48,901 nucleotides of DNA from contig SVNX01000019.1 in the NCBI GenBank assembly GCA_015066665.1, positions 1 to 48,901 of the forward strand, in the 5' to 3' direction. How positions within the stretch are numbered: position 1 is the first letter of the stretch; the number at the start of each line of letters is the position of its first letter. The notes beneath the pieces were generated by a model. It had not been told where the DNA came from. It ran no database searches and saw nothing but the letters and a program-made list of their open reading frames with translations. Source of the stretch: Ruminococcus sp. Its GTDB lineage: Bacteria; Bacillota; Clostridia; Oscillospirales; Ruminococcaceae. The position numbers and the translations under genes are program-made. Shown one piece after another: positions 1-47,471 of this stretch.

Positions 1-136
1 GGGTGGGGAGACGTCACGAAGTGACAGAGGGGACGGCGGCAGTAAGCCGCGCAGTACCCTCCAAATATAGCCCCTCCCCCTTTGGGGGAGGGGTTGGGGT
101 GGGGGCAGGTTTTAGAAAAGCCCCCTTTTTGACAAA
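1..136 (-). mobile_element. terminator-associated repeat element, copy B1 (cut by window edge)
   Basis: Non-coding repeat in reverse orientation. It shares with the elements at 22512-22722 and 47173-47444 a core of about 60 identical bases (around 1-62 here) that includes a GTCACTTCGTGAC hairpin. It ends at 131-136 in the same terminus (reverse complement TTTGTC followed by A5 and GGGGGC) directly against the terminator hairpin 137-164. The other end lies outside the window. No open frame in it looks genuine. Confidence 0.7.
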
Positions 137-164
137 CCAAATCCTCCCGAAAGGGAGGATTTGG
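137..164 (-). terminator. terminator hairpin downstream of the LRR-dockerin gene
   Basis: Inverted repeat with an 11-12 bp stem (CCAAATCCTCCC pairing with GGGAGGATTTGG) a few bases after the stop codon of the minus-strand gene. Read on that strand it lacks a proper T-tract, because the repeat element begins immediately after it. This matches the left hairpin copy at the other two element insertions. Confidence 0.75.
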
Positions 165-20442: not shown

Positions 20443-20580
20443 ACAAAATGTTTACAAAAAACTTTGCCGGATGATCCAATTTTTTTCCCGCTGCGTTGTT
20501 ATATAGACAGAAGCCTGCCGCACAAGGGACAGTGACGCCGGCAGCATATTTTCCTTCACATGAGAGAGAGGTTGATTTTT

Positions 20581-22449
20581 ATGAAAAAACGCATTCTTGC
20601 CGGTGCCGCCGCCCTTTGTCTGGCAGGCAGTTCTCTTCCGGTGCAGGCCGCTGATTTTACCGCCGATCTGACCGGCGACGGCACACTCACCTGCATCGAC
20701 GCCATCGCCATGCAGAAATATCTGCTTGGGGCTGACACCCTCACAAAATCCCAGCGTGCCGCCGCCGACATGAACCTCGACGGCCGTGTCAATGCCTTCG
20801 ATGCGGCGCTTCTGAAGCGCAGTCTGCTCGATGCATCCGCCCCCGCACGCTATGGCCGGATTGGCTTGTTCGACGGGACTTCCGCCTATTGGGATGCCGC
20901 CTGGGCGGGCGAATCCTTTGTGATTGCGACCCGTGCGGAGCTGGAAGCATGGACGGCAGAAATGCTGAGCAGTGAGGCGCGGTTCGGTGTGCATCTGCTT
21001 GAAACCTATGACGAGGCCTATTTTGAGACGTCCACCCTCTATCTCCATGCCATGATGCAGGGTGGCTCGGACTGTACCTATGATATTACGAATATGTTCG
21101 CAGCGGACGGCATTCTGCAGATTCAGTATGCCGATGTGCGTCCGCATACGCCCCTCGATGTTGAGATGCCGCTCCTTGGCGAGGCAAGCGTGCCGAAGTC
21201 CATGTACAGCGGGCACACGGCCGCCTGGACGGAGATTGCACAGAACGGCAGGATCACTTCGTGGTCGGAACAGGAAGTGCCGGTTGCACCCGATGCACTG
21301 CCGTCCGGCGAGGGCTTCATGATCCAGACGGGTGCGGCGTATCTGAAATTCATTGAGCAGTGCGGACTTTCCGGCGAGGATTGCGCACCGCCGGATCTGT
21401 CCGTTTTTACGGACTACACCTTGCTCGTGCTGCCCTGCGGATTGCAGGATGCAAGCGATCAGCGTGAAATCAGATCGATCATTCGGGAGGACGATGCAAT
21501 CGTGGTCGATCTGGATGTCGTGGAGCAGGAGACTCTCGGCGGCTGCGGTCTTTACATGGTCTACATCCCGAAGACGGATGCCGAGCGTGTGGTCTGGAAC
21601 AAGCGTTATCTCACGGCACTGCCAGACAGCCGTGTGCGTGTGGAGAGCCTGTATGCCAAAGAGAACAGCTATGCACCCTACAACCGGTATGCGGGGCTGT
21701 TTGACAATGCGGATGACTTCCGTCGGTTCCTGCGGAGCTTTGCGGCACAGGCAATCTATGAGTATCCGGAAGTGATGCATGCGATGATTGAGGATCCGGA
21801 CAGCCCGTACGGCTACACCTGCATCACCATTGAGCTGCCGGCGGTGCGTGCCTGGAAGAATGGCGTGGAGCTGGCACTCGGCGATACTTCCTGGCTGCAG
21901 AATCTGATGGAAGCCATTCCGGAGCAGTCGCTGGAGACGGATGGTCTTCTGACAACGGAGGATGTGGAAGCGCACATGGAAAACGGCTATGCAGTGCGTG
22001 TGACCTATTCCGATCCGGTGAAGATCGAATGCGGCAGCGAGAACATCGCTGTGCGGGAGCTGTTCCTTCTGACGGACGGCGTGGATGCACAGCTTGCGGT
22101 TGTGACGGATGAGGGCACACGGACATTCGGCGTGGATGCGGACATCCTGAACGAGATCCTCACGATGGCGGAGGAGAGCGAAGCGAAGGATCGGACGCTC
22201 GAGCCGGATGTGGATGCACTGGAAGCGCTGTATGATGAGGCCTTTTTCGAGGAATACCGGCTTGTGGCGGTGCATGACAGACGGGGTGCAGAGATTGTAT
22301 CGCTGGCACCGGAGGTGGACAACAGCAGCTGTCTGAGCATGACGCTGCAGGTGGGAGAAGAGGACACTGACCCAAGCGAGCTGCTTCTGGCGGCGATTCC
22401 GATTAAGGACTGTCCCGATGTGACACATCTGTTTGTGGATGAGAGATGA
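20581..22449 (+). CDS. secreted protein with N-terminal dockerin and three PrcB-like repeats
   Basis: The 622-residue product has a signal peptide (about 1-25). A two-repeat dockerin lies at the mature N-terminus (about 27-90: DLTGDGTLTCIDAIAMQKYLLG and DMNLDGRVNAFDAALLKRSLL). The remaining 530 residues contain three related segments of the pattern Y(D)E.(Y/F)F....L followed by a beta-rich stretch: TYDEAYFETSTLYL, LSVFTDYTLLVL and LYDEAFFEEYRLVA. They resemble the PrcB C-terminal fold (PF14343) in layout. A region near 370-520 is unassigned. The start at 20581 is preceded by AGAGAGG. Dockerins are usually C-terminal, so the arrangement is uncommon. No catalytic motif is recognised; it may be an inhibitor, adaptor or binding protein. 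Confidence 0.83.
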   Translation: MKKRILAGAAALCLAGSSLPVQAADFTADLTGDGTLTCIDAIAMQKYLLGADTLTKSQRAAADMNLDGRVNAFDAALLKRSLLDASAPARYGRIGLFDGTSAYWDAAWAGESFVIATRAELEAWTAEMLSSEARFGVHLLETYDEAYFETSTLYLHAMMQGGSDCTYDITNMFAADGILQIQYADVRPHTPLDVEMPLLGEASVPKSMYSGHTAAWTEIAQNGRITSWSEQEVPVAPDALPSGEGFMIQTGAAYLKFIEQCGLSGEDCAPPDLSVFTDYTLLVLPCGLQDASDQREIRSIIREDDAIVVDLDVVEQETLGGCGLYMVYIPKTDAERVVWNKRYLTALPDSRVRVESLYAKENSYAPYNRYAGLFDNADDFRRFLRSFAAQAIYEYPEVMHAMIEDPDSPYGYTCITIELPAVRAWKNGVELALGDTSWLQNLMEAIPEQSLETDGLLTTEDVEAHMENGYAVRVTYSDPVKIECGSENIAVRELFLLTDGVDAQLAVVTDEGTRTFGVDADILNEILTMAEESEAKDRTLEPDVDALEALYDEAFFEEYRLVAVHDRRGAEIVSLAPEVDNSSCLSMTLQVGEEDTDPSELLLAAIPIKDCPDVTHLFVDER

Positions 22450-22482
22450 GGGGCATGGGAATTTTCCTGAAATATGCAAAGA

Positions 22483-22511
22483 AAACCCTTGCAGAAAATC
22501 TGCAAGGGTTT
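22483..22511 (+). terminator. terminator hairpin, left copy of the duplication around element B2
   Basis: AAACCCTTGCAG / CTGCAAGGGTTT hairpin after the dockerin gene. It is preceded by an A-rich stretch but not followed by a T-tract. It is repeated with one mismatch at 22723-22751. Confidence 0.85.
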
Positions 22512-22722
22512 GCGCTTGTCAAAAAAGGGGGCTTTTTCAAAAACCTGCCCCCACCCCCTCCCCTCCCCCTGAGGGGGAGGGGCTATATGTGGAGGGTACT
22601 GCGCGGCTTACTGCCGCCGTCCCCTCTGTCACTTCGTGACGTCTCCCCACCCCGTGGGGAGCAGCCCTCCACCCGCCAAAGGGCTATGCCCTTTGCATCC
22701 ATTTGGTTTTTTCGAAAGACTG
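22512..22722 (+). mobile_element. terminator-associated repeat element, copy B2
   Basis: Non-coding, about 210 bp. Left end is CTTGTC followed by A6 and GGGGGC (22515 on). Right end is T-rich and closes with TTCGAAAGACTG. The inverted termini are imperfect (TTGTC.AAAAA against TTTTTTCGA.AG). Internal hairpins include CCCCTCCCCCT/AGGGGGAGGGG, GTCACTTCGTGAC, CCCCACCCCGTGGGG and AAAGGGCTATGCCCTTT. It is flanked by direct copies of a 29-bp terminator hairpin. Confidence 0.75.
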
Positions 22723-22751
22723 AAACCCTTGCAGAAAATCTGTAAGGGTTT
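22723..22751 (-). terminator. terminator hairpin, right copy of the duplication around element B2
   Basis: Same hairpin as 22483-22511 with one C-to-T change, followed on the plus strand by T5. It now serves the convergent SGNH gene. Confidence 0.85.
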
Positions 22752-22783
22752 TTCGTTTCATTGATAAGAATTTCCCGCTTCAC

Positions 22784-24730
22784 TTAGTTGTAATGCAGTG
22801 TGACGGAGACCAGAGACATGCTGCCCCAGTAATTGTAGATGGTCATTCTGTCCTGCGGATTGGTGATGGTGATTTCGATCGTGTTGTCTGCGGTCAGGTT
22901 TGCACGATCATAGGCATTCTGGGAAGCCCAGCTGCCCATGACAACGCATCCGCCGAAGCCGTGGCCGATTTCACCGTCCAGCTGCAGGGTGATGCTTGTG
23001 ATATTGGCAAAGTCATAATCCGCCAGAGAATAGGAATTGCCATAGACAACATCCGTCAGTACCACGGTGCCGCCGGTCACAGGCTCTGTGGTCGTCTCTT
23101 CTGTGGTCGTCGTGGTGGTCGTGGTCTCCGGTGCTGTCGTCTCGGGAACGGTTGTGGTCGTTGTGGTTGTGGTTTCCGGTGCGGGAGTGGTTGTCGTGGT
23201 GGTGGTAGTTGTCGTGGTAGTGGTTGTTGTGGTGGTTGTAGTAGTTGTGGTGGTGGTAGTTGTTGTTGTGGTAGTTGTTGTAGTCGTTGTAGTCGTGGTT
23301 GTGGTGGTGGTGGTCGTTGTAGTCGTAGTCGTGGTTGTTGTAGTTGTGGTGGTAGTAGTGGTCGTCGTTGTCGTCGTGGTGGTTTCGGGTGTTGTTGTGG
23401 TTGTTGTGGTTTCTGCGGGCGTATCGCCGCCGAAGGAGAGAACCACATGCTTCAGATTGGTATCGCCGTACCACTTATAGAAGACGAAGGAATCATACTC
23501 CGCATCCAGTGTGAAGGTCAGGGTGTTGTTCACGAGATCGTCACCCGTATAATTGATGCTCTTCGACCAGTTGTTGAAGGCGACGCAGCCGTTCATGCCG
23601 TAGGGCGGGGTCTGGTCAAAGACAAAGGAGATCTCCTTGATACCGTCGTAAGCAGAGAGGTCATAGTTCACGCCGATCTCTGCATCCGTCAGGATGATGT
23701 CGCCGCTGACAGAGGGAGCGGTGGTTTCGGGAGCCGGTGCTTCGGTGGCAGGCTCGGTTTCAACAGGCTCGGTTTCGGCAGGCGCAGTGACAGTGGGTTC
23801 GGTTTCCGTTGCGGGTGCATCGGTTTCGGGCGGTGTGACTTCCGGCAGGGAGCCGCCCAGATAGGAGACAATGTTCTCTGCCCAGTGGGCACCCATCTTT
23901 GCATAGCCCTGCTCACTCGGATGGCAGCCGTCCTCAAGATCGCCTGCGGTGTAGTCGATCACGCTGTTCACGTCACCGAACTGCACGTTCTTGCCCTCAG
24001 CCTGTTTTTCGGCCACCAGTGCCTTGACGCCGTCATTGTATGCGTCCACGCATTCGGTGACAACCTGCATCAGGCCGTCCTTGTCGTTGTAGGAATCCGT
24101 GCCGTAATTGTAGTTGTAATTGTTCAGCCAGTCGTAACGTGTATAGGCGTCAATATCCGGAATGGTCGATACAAAAAGCACATCGGAGCTGTCCATGTTG
24201 GCGAGGATTTCATCGACCAGATATTCGAGTCGATCCACCGCACGCATGCTCAGTGCGCCGCTGGAACCGGTGGCCTCAAGATTGGCATCGAGAAGATCGT
24301 TCGTGCCGATCTGGAGCAGAACCATGTCCGGATCGTAGGTTTCCATCATATTGCCCCCGCCGAACAGGAATTCATAGATGCCGCTGCGGCCGGGATAATT
24401 CATGATCGAATAGCCGCTGTTGCCGGCATGGGCGGGGTCATAGGTGAAGGATTGGCCGTTCCAGTTGTAGGAAACGCTGTTCGTCCAGTTGTTGTTCGGG
24501 CCGACCATGTCATAGTCGATGCCCTCCTGCTGGAGGTAATAGCAAAGGTACTTGCGGTAGCCGTTGTCGCCGTTGATGTAGCCATGCGTGATGGAATCAC
24601 CAACCGCCATGATCTTGATGGCATCGCTTGTGTCCGCTGCGGAAGCTGTGGTCATGCCCGCAGTGCCGATGGTGCAGCTGATGCCCAGACAAAGTGCAAG
24701 AGCAGCTGCCAGATTTCTTCGTTTTTTCAT
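22784..24730 (-). CDS. secreted SGNH/GDSL esterase with two beta-sandwich modules and a 66-Thr run
   Basis: The 648-residue product has a signal peptide (about 1-32). The SGNH hydrolase domain (about 37-295) has block I GDSIT (Ser 46), Gly 103, IGTND (Asn 144) and EDGCH (Asp 267/His 270), which is a CE3-like acetyl-esterase layout. A Pro/Thr/Glu linker (PVETEPATEAPAPETTAPS) leads to a first beta-sandwich (about 345-432). A Thr tract of about 110 residues, with 66 uninterrupted Thr at 450-515, then leads to a second copy of the sandwich (about 555-648). The two sandwiches share the pattern ILTD/VLTD...Y.LxxYD...GCV.(F/M)..W and are likely carbohydrate-binding modules, perhaps CBM37-like. There is no dockerin. 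It is probably a free secreted deacetylase of hemicellulose; the substrate is inferred. Confidence 0.9.
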   Translation of the reverse strand: MKKRRNLAAALALCLGISCTIGTAGMTTASAADTSDAIKIMAVGDSITHGYINGDNGYRKYLCYYLQQEGIDYDMVGPNNNWTNSVSYNWNGQSFTYDPAHAGNSGYSIMNYPGRSGIYEFLFGGGNMMETYDPDMVLLQIGTNDLLDANLEATGSSGALSMRAVDRLEYLVDEILANMDSSDVLFVSTIPDIDAYTRYDWLNNYNYNYGTDSYNDKDGLMQVVTECVDAYNDGVKALVAEKQAEGKNVQFGDVNSVIDYTAGDLEDGCHPSEQGYAKMGAHWAENIVSYLGGSLPEVTPPETDAPATETEPTVTAPAETEPVETEPATEAPAPETTAPSVSGDIILTDAEIGVNYDLSAYDGIKEISFVFDQTPPYGMNGCVAFNNWSKSINYTGDDLVNNTLTFTLDAEYDSFVFYKWYGDTNLKHVVLSFGGDTPAETTTTTTTPETTTTTTTTTTTTTTTTTTTTTTTTTTTTTTTTTTTTTTTTTTTTTTTTTTTTTTTTTTTTTTTTTTPAPETTTTTTTTVPETTAPETTTTTTTTEETTTEPVTGGTVVLTDVVYGNSYSLADYDFANITSITLQLDGEIGHGFGGCVVMGSWASQNAYDRANLTADNTIEITITNPQDRMTIYNYWGSMSLVSVTLHYN

Positions 24731-24807: not shown

Positions 24808-25095
24808 TAGATAATGTGTAAAACGGGCATGAATTTTCGTTCACATTTGCTTTATCGCGCTAATAAAACTGCCTGTTTATGGGAAAATGCGGCTTGCACA
24901 AGAAAACGGACAACGAAATCGTTTAAGCTACTTTTACTATGTTTGTATACAATATGTAATGAAATGCGAGGGAATGGAAAATTACTTTTCTCTTTTTAGA
25001 AAAACATCACAAAATTGCCACATTTCCCCTGTATAATGAATCACAGAAAGACAGAACACCGGAATTGGGCCATTTTACAGAAAGTGGTGAACCCT

Positions 25096-27132
25096 ATGTA
25101 TACAAAAAGACCGATGGCAGGGCTGATTGGTGCGGCCCTGACTTTCTCGCTGCTTGCGGCGGGATGCAGTGCGGATACCTCTTCGGACAGCACGCAGGAG
25201 ACCACTGCACCGACTGCCGCAGCCGAATACACGCCTCCTGCGCCCGGTGATCGGGGCGGCCGTGATTTCTTCGGCGATCCCGCACAGACAGCGGTTTCCG
25301 CAGAGCTGCCCGAATACGAGGCACTCGCACGGACGACGGATACCGCAGCACTCTTCACTGAGCGTGACCTTGACGGCCACTATGACAGCATCACCGCCGA
25401 AATCCGGCTTGACGGCCGGACGGCGTCCGTTACAGGTACGGGTGCAGCCGTGGACGGCGGCGTCATCACCATCACGGATGAGGGCACCTACCGGATCTCC
25501 GGCACGCTTGAGGAGGGACGCATCCATGTGAACAGTCCGGGCAAGGTACAGCTGCTGCTTGCCGGTGCGAGCGTGCATTGCAGCGATTTTGCCCCGATCT
25601 ACATCGAACAGGCAAAAAAAGCCTTCATCACGACCGAATCCGGCACGGTCAACAGCATTTCGGACGGTGCGGATTATGTCTGGCCGGAGGGCACGGAGAG
25701 CGAACCCGATGCCGCCATATTCAGCCGTGACAGCCTGACACTCAACGGCAGCGGCACGCTTTTGGTGACAGGGCTGTACAACGAGGGCATCACCTGCAAG
25801 GATGATCTTGTCATCACCTCCGGCAGCCTTCAGGTGACGGCCGCAGGCAACGGCATCAAGGGCAAGGACTACATTGCCGTGGCAGGCGGTGACATTACGG
25901 TTGAAGCCGGCGGCGACGGCATGAAATCCGACAACCTGACGGATGCCGGCATGGGCTTTGTCTATGTACAGGATGGCAGGATTCAGATCACTGCTGCCGA
26001 GGACGGTATACAGGCGGATACGGAGCTGCTGCTGGACGGCGGCAGTCTTACGGTCACGGCGGGCGGCGGCATTGCGAATGCCGTGCCCCATACGGAGGAT
26101 TTCGGCGGACGCGGCGGCTGGGGCGGCGGTTTCTTCGGCGAAGAGACCACGCAGGAAACCGAGGAGACAAGCCCCAGCACGAAGGCACTCAAGGCAGGCA
26201 CGCTGCTTGCAATTGCGGGCGGCATCCACAGTCTCGAGGCGGCCGATGACGGCCTGCACGCCAATGGCGACCTCAGTCTGACGGGCGGCACAGTGGAGAT
26301 TCTCGCAGGGGGCGATGGCATCCATGCCGATGGCAGAGCCGATTTTTCCGGCGGCAGTGTGACCATCACGCAGTCCTATGAGGGCATTGAAGCGGCGGTG
26401 ATCCGCTGTCTCGGTGCGGATATATCGCTGACAGCTTCCGATGACGGCTTCAATGCTTCGGACGGAACGGCGCAGGGCGGCATGGGTACATATTCCGAGG
26501 GCTGCTGTCTTGTGATGGCGGACGGCATGGTCTATGTCAATGCGGGCGGTGACGGTCTGGATTCAAACGGACTGTTCTTTGTCACCGGCGGCACGGTGCA
26601 TGTGGATGGCCCGACCAACAGCGGAAACGGTGCCCTCGATGCAAACAGTGCGATTCAGTGCACGGGCGGCGAGCTGATCGCTGCGGGCATGTCCGGCATG
26701 GCGGAATATCCGCAGGGCAGCCATACGCTTGTCATCACGCTTGATACAGTGCAGGAGGGCGGCACGCCGATTTCTGTCCGGGGCGATGATGGCAGCACGC
26801 TGACCTACACGCCGGCAAAGAGCTATAATTCGGTCGTGATCCGCTCCGACCAGCTGCAGGCCGGTATACATTATACAATATATGCCGGTGAGAGCGAAGT
26901 GGGCAGTGTGGACATGACGGAGGAGACGACATTCTTCGGCGAGGCCGGCGGCATGATGGGCGGCTGGCAGCAGGGCGGATTCCATGGCGGCCACGGCGGC
27001 CGTGGAGATTGGATGCAGGAAGGCGAAATGGACGGCACAAGGCCTGCCATGCCCGATGGTATGACGCCCCCCGATGGCATGACGCCCCCCGATGGCATGA
27101 TGCCGCCGGATGGAGCGGCGATCCCGTCGTAG
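25096..27132 (+). CDS. Cthe_2159-like carbohydrate-binding beta-helix lipoprotein
   Basis: The 678-residue product has a lipobox LLAAGC and then a low-complexity spacer. A long right-handed beta-helix-like region (about 115-590) is built of repeated G-x-I-x-I/V..(G/A)GDG turns: VITITDEGTYRISG, AGNGIKGKDYIAVAGGDITVEAGGDGMKSDN, DDGLHANGDLSLTGG. This matches PF14262, the family of Clostridium thermocellum Cthe_2159, which binds cellulose and polygalacturonate. The tail is Gly/His-rich and ends in repeated P-D-G-M-(T/M)-P-P units. A Gly-rich insert of about 45 residues near 340-385 interrupts the helix. The ATG at 25096 has only a weak ribosome-binding site (AGTGGTGA). It is likely a surface-held pectin/cellulose binder. 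Confidence 0.88.
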   Translation: MYTKRPMAGLIGAALTFSLLAAGCSADTSSDSTQETTAPTAAAEYTPPAPGDRGGRDFFGDPAQTAVSAELPEYEALARTTDTAALFTERDLDGHYDSITAEIRLDGRTASVTGTGAAVDGGVITITDEGTYRISGTLEEGRIHVNSPGKVQLLLAGASVHCSDFAPIYIEQAKKAFITTESGTVNSISDGADYVWPEGTESEPDAAIFSRDSLTLNGSGTLLVTGLYNEGITCKDDLVITSGSLQVTAAGNGIKGKDYIAVAGGDITVEAGGDGMKSDNLTDAGMGFVYVQDGRIQITAAEDGIQADTELLLDGGSLTVTAGGGIANAVPHTEDFGGRGGWGGGFFGEETTQETEETSPSTKALKAGTLLAIAGGIHSLEAADDGLHANGDLSLTGGTVEILAGGDGIHADGRADFSGGSVTITQSYEGIEAAVIRCLGADISLTASDDGFNASDGTAQGGMGTYSEGCCLVMADGMVYVNAGGDGLDSNGLFFVTGGTVHVDGPTNSGNGALDANSAIQCTGGELIAAGMSGMAEYPQGSHTLVITLDTVQEGGTPISVRGDDGSTLTYTPAKSYNSVVIRSDQLQAGIHYTIYAGESEVGSVDMTEETTFFGEAGGMMGGWQQGGFHGGHGGRGDWMQEGEMDGTRPAMPDGMTPPDGMTPPDGMMPPDGAAIPS

Positions 27133-47145: not shown

Positions 47146-47172
47146 GAGCTGCCGTCCTGATGGACGACAGCT
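47146..47172 (+). terminator. terminator hairpin, left copy of the duplication around element B3
   Basis: GAGCTGCCGTCC / GGACGACAGCT hairpin preceded by CAAAACAA and lacking a T-tract. It is identical over 27 bases to 47445-47471. Confidence 0.85.
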
Positions 47173-47444
47173 GAGCTTGTCGAAAAAGGGGGCTTATTCA
47201 AAAAACTGCCCCCAGCCGGCTCATATCCTGTGCCGGCATACCACTCACATTCGAGCAGCATCTTGCCTCATATTCGGGCAACCCCAACCCCTCCCCCAAG
47301 GGGGGCTATATTTGGAGGGTACTGCGCGGCTTACTGCCGCCGTCCCCTCTGTCACTTCGTGACGTCTCCCCACCCCGTGGGGAGCAGCCCTCCACCCGCC
47401 AAAGGACTTCGTCCTTTGAACCTGATAAGTTTTTTCGACAGACT
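47173..47444 (+). mobile_element. terminator-associated repeat element, copy B3
   Basis: About 272 bp. It starts GAGCTTGTCGAAAAAGGGGGC and ends TTTTTTCGACAGACT, so the inverted termini are clearer here (TTGTCGAAAAA against TTTTTTCGACAG). It has the same core as B1 and B2. An extra segment of about 70 bp (about 47213-47285, with a GCCGGC...GCCGGC hairpin) is absent from B2. No coding capacity. Confidence 0.75.
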
Positions 47445-47471
47445 GAGCTGCCGTCCTGATGGACGACAGCT
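47445..47471 (-). terminator. terminator hairpin, right copy of the duplication around element B3
   Basis: Identical to 47146-47172 and followed by CTTCTTGTTATT, the T-rich half that the left copy lacks. It ends the GH44 gene on the minus strand. Confidence 0.85.

Follow-up and report, generated by a model that had tools for sequence, protein, structure and literature searches.

A gene-less element with IS1182-type ends lies between two copies of a terminator hairpin in Ruminococcus and belongs to a mobile family

We found that B2, a short element between two convergent genes of a Ruminococcus species, is one of a family of mobile elements that lack genes (MITE) and have ends CAGNYTGTCRAAAAA. 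B2 is very probably mobilized in trans by a DDE transposase of the IS1182 family, one that targets palindromic terminators and duplicates the whole hairpin. An earlier note on this DNA did not recognize the type of element; our analysis assigns B2 to the IS1182 family of insertion sequences. Coordinates are given in Table 1 for the window (the whole stretch of 48,901 nucleotides that was analysed).

Table 1. Features of the B2 locus, other family copies in the window, and loci used for comparison
Feature	Coordinates	Strand	Description
B2	22512..22722	+	211-bp non-autonomous element (MITE), IS1182-type ends, no plausible gene
Left terminal repeat of B2	22512..22526	+	GCGCTTGTCAAAAAA; family consensus CAGCTTGTCRAAAAA; first two bases altered
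Right terminal repeat of B2	22708..22722	-	CAGTCTTTCGAAAAA (minus-strand reading); family consensus CAGTCTGTCGAAAAA
Left hairpin copy	22483..22511	+	29-bp terminator palindrome; target duplication
Right hairpin copy	22723..22751	+	29-bp palindrome; one mismatch
A-rich side	22478..22485	+	Presumed original bidirectional terminator
T-run	22749..22753	+	Presumed original bidirectional terminator
Left gene	20560..22449	+	629 aa, dockerin type I domain (PF00404, E 4e-15)
Right gene	22784..24730	-	648 aa, GDSL lipase (PF00657, E 1.3e-14)
Family copy no. 2	47173..47445	+	Complete
Family copy no. 3	1..145	-	Truncated by contig start
IS copies with two different hairpins			L181, L194, L195, L196, L198, L205, L207, L211, L216, L220, L222, L229
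Filled versus empty sites			L252 versus L260 and L262; L256 versus L261 and L263

Results

B2 is bracketed by two copies of a terminator hairpin

The earlier note had described two direct 29-bp hairpin copies around B2 that differ by one mismatch, with the A-rich side kept only by the left copy and the T-tract only by the right copy. Both descriptions hold. The two copies are identical at 28 of 29 nt (97%) and have a spacing of 240 bp. In the left copy, a loop of 3 nt closes a 13-bp stem with no mispairs. The single mismatch of the right copy gives a G-U pair in plus-strand RNA. On reading the sequence, we found an A-rich side only to the left of the left copy and a T-run only to the right of the right copy. 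On the minus strand, the left copy is followed by a U-run, the complement of the A-rich stretch. The stop codon of the dockerin gene is 33 nt upstream of the left copy, and the stop codon of the convergent lipase gene faces B2. Folded as single-stranded DNA, a 301-nt stretch scored far better than 100 shuffles (z = -10.1).

Each end of B2 has one mismatch to the family end motif, and the only ORFs in B2 are short and overlapping. Long runs of C in the core (22545-22580) may allow G-quadruplexes on the minus strand. The complete second copy in the window is flanked by a duplicated palindrome of 26 bp (47147-47172 and 47446-47471).

We rejected a group IIC intron as a candidate for B2. Rfam, which includes a group II intron model, gave no match at the family gathering score in 21900-23400 (five sub-threshold matches were seen in E-value mode), and B2 contains no ORF of the size of a reverse transcriptase.

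The earlier note had also proposed that each of the two convergent genes keeps a hairpin. Each gene does keep one, but for each the needed combination of hairpin and U-run is now the distal copy, and therefore both transcripts would have to cross B2. The plus-strand dockerin transcript is predicted to contain the left hairpin without a U-run, then B2, then the right hairpin with its U-run. The minus-strand lipase transcript would have the reverse order, with the left copy as its full terminator. Judging from this arrangement, termination at B2 should be kept and shifted by ~240 nt, with overlap expected between the 3' UTRs of the two genes. Overlapping 3' UTRs running through the element are predicted for convergent gene pairs such as this one.

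The GDSL lipase (22784-24730, minus strand) has a very long threonine-rich linker. A gene for a Cthe_2159 carbohydrate-binding protein (25015-27132, plus strand) adjoins the GDSL lipase and dockerin protein genes, and the neighbourhood would appear to be a cellulosome-like, fibre-degrading setting.

Duplicated hairpins recur throughout the family

A 269-bp query gave 66 matches in the own genome (2.03 Mb in 40 contigs, 77% complete). Thirty loci that we inspected had a common end motif, and most complete copies were each beside a different hairpin. The end motif CAGNYTGTCNAAAAA (at most one mismatch) matched 80 times in this genome versus 12 times with a reversed control. Clustered matches were taken as 60 stretches and ends were then paired. 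This sample yielded 26 pairs for which both flanks were present; 25 were selected by rule, and B2 was added by hand despite its two end mismatches. Two of 28 pairs picked by hand are not among the 26: one (L090, 18447-18712) was left out as a mispairing and the other (L117) for two end mismatches, though it is duplicated. Flanks were called duplicated at a local alignment score of at least 16 (the 99th percentile of a mismatched-flank control), and a hairpin was called as abutting an end at a stem score of at least 7.

Flanks were duplicated in 24 of the 26 copies (B2 included) versus 7 of 650 mismatched flank pairs. Hairpins were present at both ends of 22 copies (22/26); at random positions, a hairpin on one side was found in 14 of 520. 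A stricter ungapped rule gave 20/25 duplicated with B2 excluded. In a congener (G002), we selected 20 stretches among the matches listed, mostly those with two close ends. Here 18 of 26 copies had duplicated flanks versus 3 of 650 mismatched pairs, with eight copies (8/26) scoring under the threshold; the ungapped rule gave 16/26. Hairpins were at both ends of 13/26, and one-sided hairpins were found at 5/520 random positions.

Because duplicated flanks recur genome-wide (24/26 versus 7/650), chance is excluded as an explanation for the hairpin pair around B2. The earlier note had proposed insertion into a terminator with target-site duplication of the whole hairpin, and had suggested looking for duplicated flanking hairpins at most copies; the counts in both genomes (24/26 and 18/26) support the proposal. 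In the own genome and in G002, the family is dispersed, multicopy and accompanied by target-site duplication, as is characteristic of MITEs.

The exact end motif was present in 37 of 38 genomes of the genus. There were 151 matches in G002 and 100 in another congener, G008 (reversed controls, 0 in both); many of the 38 genomes had few matches, close to the control level of 0-3.

Several own-genome contigs start or stop within family copies. Assemblies are fragmented for many of the genomes, with contig ends that often fall in repeats of this family. At three loci (L117 on own contig C39, L100 and L114), element ends directly adjoin the duplicated hairpins of another copy. These are signs of repeated insertion at or beside one terminator.

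An insertion sequence in the genus has the same ends

We searched 31 genomes (the own genome and 30 relatives) for the DDE_Tnp_1_6 domain and found matches in 10, above the cut-off in eight. Congener G011 contains a 1532-bp insertion sequence (L123, 449-1980) with ends CAGCCTGTCGAAAAAGTCC and CAGCCTGTCAAAAAAGTCC. Its DDE_Tnp_1_6 transposase is in two open pieces, and its flanks are a 31-bp direct palindromic duplication. A 15-bp end motif is common to the B2-family MITEs and this insertion sequence. In G008, a 354-residue open stretch (L122) is truncated by the contig start. The protein from this stretch (P0001) narrowly passed the NCBIfam model NF033551 for IS1182 transposases (272 bits, cut-off 270) and matched PF13751 and PF01609 above cut-off.

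The MITEs have two types of end, CAGC- and CAGT-. Beyond the motif, these resemble the left (AAAAAGTC) and right (AAAAACC) ends of the consensus insertion sequence; L123 reads GTCC at both ends at these positions. A search of the own genome (77% complete), run without a positive control, gave no relative of the L122 transposase at E <= 0.01, and the DDE_Tnp_1_6 family search there gave a weak fragment below cut-off. An insertion sequence of the L123 type, found in the same genus and with the same ends, is likely the source type of the B2 family. Without a transposase and with the terminal repeats of a cognate insertion sequence, B2 qualifies on sequence grounds as an IS1182-derived MITE.

Whole palindromes are duplicated around named IS1182 relatives

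A transposase search of named genomes returned at least 80 relatives, mostly in Firmicutes; these loci are copies, not species, and some are from one genome. Ends were found by motif search. Both ends were identified in 58 of the 80 loci listed, and flanking sequence was sufficient in 48. We found whole-palindrome duplication in 33 of these 48 copies versus 0 of 700 mismatched flank pairs, and hairpins abutted both ends in 38/48.

The other 15 copies (15/48) had no duplication. Twelve of them had a hairpin at each end, and the two hairpins differed in all twelve (12/12; Table 1). This class could have arisen by deletion between copies; intramolecular transposition would fit as well. For one member (L207, in a complete Oscillibacter genome), second copies of both hairpins, as reciprocal recombination would leave, were absent. 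Two hairpins in G002 were traced in the same way: one was at a single place only, and the other recurred with its own flank.

Among plasmids, 364 records match the transposase. We chose 12 plasmid copies by hand from transposase or element matches; seven of these 12 were duplicated and five were not.

Empty sites of two relatives have a single hairpin

In the Lactococcus plasmid pUCCL626B, an IS1182 element is flanked by two copies of a 20-bp palindrome. This region is matched by 36 plasmid records, of which one is filled and 27 have both flanks over 940-945 bp; the expected length of an empty site (query minus insertion sequence minus one hairpin) is 945. The remaining records are longer by ~727 bp (seven records) or have one flank only (one record). 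The two of the 27 that were read, p229B and pNUF462, have a single hairpin that is A-rich on its left and T-rich on its right. The arrangement in pGTC2 of E. faecalis is the same, with a 25-bp palindrome. Here 169 records match the region, and among the 60 listed, 29 have both flanks over 958-960 bp (958 expected); the two of these that were read, pARO1.2 and pE1123, have a single hairpin each. The empty sites of these two relatives thus have one hairpin and the filled sites have two.

One of the seven longer records was read (L275, Lactococcus plasmid NZ_CP084192.1). In it, the same hairpin holds a different element that has inverted ends of its own. The duplication around this element is 10 bp long and it, too, is centred on the palindrome.

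The earlier note had expected empty sites to carry one hairpin flanked by A- and T-tracts. This was borne out for the two plasmid relatives, but for B2 no empty site was found in the 38 genomes searched across the genus, which included the own genome (seven candidates scored per genome, among the matches listed). The best match to the lipase gene among the matches listed was in G008 (75% identity), and beside it is one different, unduplicated hairpin. We infer the insertion event at B2 itself from the family.

Duplications are centred on the hairpin and vary in length

We pooled 60 perfect duplications (13 from the own genome, 9 from G002, 31 from named insertion sequences and 7 from plasmids); B2 is not in this set, which is restricted to perfect duplications. 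Their length was 19-38 bp, with a median of 24.5 (n=60). The centre of the hairpin was the centre of the duplication in 56/60 and was half a base off in four. Duplications that were centred and had at least 85% of the stem paired made up 48/60, versus 2 of 1200 random stretches.

The first and last bases of the duplication formed a pair in 47/60. At least one extra pair was possible outside the duplication in 39/60, so the outermost pair does not always mark the cut. Within the first eight positions, the extra outside pairs were A-T in 104 cases and others in 21. At least five T were found in the eight bases to the right of the right copy in 40/60, and at least five A in the eight bases to the left of the left copy in 35/60; both sides were A/T-rich in 25/60. 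No common sequence was evident among the targets listed.

Targets are at the 3' ends of genes

We scored ORFs by composition around 70 duplicated copies. Fifty could be classified: 26 were between convergent genes, 24 between tandem genes and none between divergent genes. The other 20 were unclear (18) or had short flanks (2). The median distance from a gene 3' end to the edge of the element was 41 nt, hairpin copy included (76 distances). A cruder pass using the longest ORF (68 sites) placed 27 between tandem, 21 between convergent and 20 between divergent genes; the amino-acid-composition score, with a cut-off that we set ourselves, was adopted after this result was known. We distrust the longest-ORF pass because antisense ORFs can exceed real genes in length. 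Long ORFs of this kind occur often in this DNA; one is at 20452-22479 on the minus strand, opposite the dockerin gene. As scored by composition, the insertion targets are gene 3' ends.

Discussion

A model for duplication of the whole hairpin

DDE transposases are known to make target duplications of fixed length, set by the geometry of the enzyme. The duplications described here follow the target hairpin in length and are centred on its dyad, and they provide indirect yet strong evidence that DNA structure is recognized. Our results suggest that the enzyme reads DNA shape, not sequence.

In the model that we propose, the transposase would act on B2 in trans. It would select terminators that are palindromic, probably when these are extruded as cruciforms, and would join the element's 3' ends to the 5' foot of each of the two stem-loops, which is equivalent to a staggered cut flanking the palindrome. 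Gap repair would then copy the single-stranded palindrome on each side, and therefore the target-site duplication would be the entire hairpin. Its length would be dictated by the hairpin and not by a fixed spacing of the enzyme. With a terminator retained by both neighbours, insertion would be nearly harmless.

How the target is recognized could be otherwise. The same element and family could be served by an enzyme that senses the twofold symmetry of a linear double-stranded palindrome, two subunits on two arms, with no cruciform. We consider this unlikely, with some real chance of being correct. The duplications are dyad-centred in 56/60, yet 39/60 are shorter than the longest possible palindrome, as contacts with the arms might give, and the different element (L275) in one such hairpin is likewise flanked by a duplication that is centred and 10 bp long (one case). 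However, fixed protein contacts poorly explain a range of 19-38 bp between hairpins, and the absence of an evident shared sequence among the listed targets also speaks against this possibility.

Three other explanations concern the origin of the hairpins. They could be the outer ends of the element itself and move along with it. Most ends are indeed abutted by a hairpin, including both ends of 12 of the 15 named copies without duplication, and one G002 hairpin was found at six places (<=2 mismatches). However, the hairpins vary by locus and match their own partner (controls, 7/650, 3/650 and 0/700), and the empty plasmid sites, which already have the hairpin, contradict this explanation. The recurring G002 hairpin also brings along ~50 bp of similar upstream flank (L269-L271), and at one of the places read (L271) no element end adjoins it; it looks like a separate terminator-carrying repeat. 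We regard hairpins that travel with the element as highly improbable. It is just as hard to credit that B2 is a static intergenic repeat whose two hairpins have independent origins or come from a tandem duplication. Bacteria commonly have intergenic repeats rich in hairpins, but the family has similar dispersed copies with site-specific duplications, shares its end motif with a transposase-bearing element, and has insertion-sequence relatives with single-hairpin empty sites. Finally, insertion could delete the target hairpin, a stem-loop replacement like that of IS1272, which is in the same family of insertion sequences and has the same kind of target (portions available of PMC4923244 and PMC5678879). 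We give this next to no credence: duplicated copies keep a hairpin at each side, which contradicts replacement for those copies.

Consequences

Beyond B2, we favour, with considerable reserve, a general form of the cruciform model. A widespread subgroup of IS1182 transposases and their MITEs would carry out structure-measured transposition on extruded terminator cruciforms, the whole hairpin would be copied, and the neighbouring genes would keep their terminators. A duplication length that tracks the target hairpin makes the cruciform model directly testable. The findings also suggest a low-harm strategy in which elements settle in terminators and copy them. One class of GC-rich intergenic repeats in the genus, together with the contig breaks inside them, is explained by this family.

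Comparison with known systems

Group IIC introns are terminator-seeking retroelements; they insert next to the stem and are not known to duplicate any of the target. B2 is like them in its terminator-seeking insertion and unlike them in that the stem-loop is duplicated. Insertion sequences of REP palindromes have sequence-specific targets, short or no duplications, and other transposases. These elements insert in REP palindromes (PMC1525189, as far as its available text goes), and B2 is like them in having palindromic targets.

B2 is like insertion sequences of the IS1182 family (NF033551; L123 and those of pUCCL626B and pGTC2) in its ends (CAGNYTG[TA][CA]RA[AC]AA), its terminator-like palindromic targets and the duplication of the whole palindrome. 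It is unlike them in being 211 bp long, in having no transposase, and in that the first two bases of its left end are altered. For IS1182, ISfinder gives a wide range of direct-repeat lengths, and its curators may know individual cases. In the available text of PMC5678879, PMC4923244, PMC3281130, PMC9484755 and PMC10969869, whole-hairpin duplication by an IS1182 element appears only as a hypothetical pathway (in PMC5678879).

A table row for ISPse1 of Paracoccus, an IS1182-family element, lists the value 4 (in the part of PMC3281130 available). We take this as an ordinary 4-bp duplication; if so, the IS1182 family is heterogeneous. In the available portions of the reports, IS1272 of this family deletes its target hairpin and a cruciform model has been proposed (PMC5678879), and for TnSha1 of Staphylococcus, in the same family, the hairpin is deleted with no duplication (PMC4923244). 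The targets of IS1272 and TnSha1 are described there as hairpins, several of them confirmed terminators, without sequence preference (PMC4923244, PMC5678879). Unlike IS1272 and TnSha1, in which the stem-loop is wholly or partly removed with no duplication, the stem-loop is duplicated here, and B2 has a hairpin on each side. In the part of their paper available, Wan et al. give duplication of the whole hairpin as the hypothetical pathway b of the IS1272 model (PMC5678879). The copies described here are as pathway b would predict. If our model is true, structure-measured transposition would be the natural realization of duplication, which in the case of IS1272 had been a hypothetical branch.
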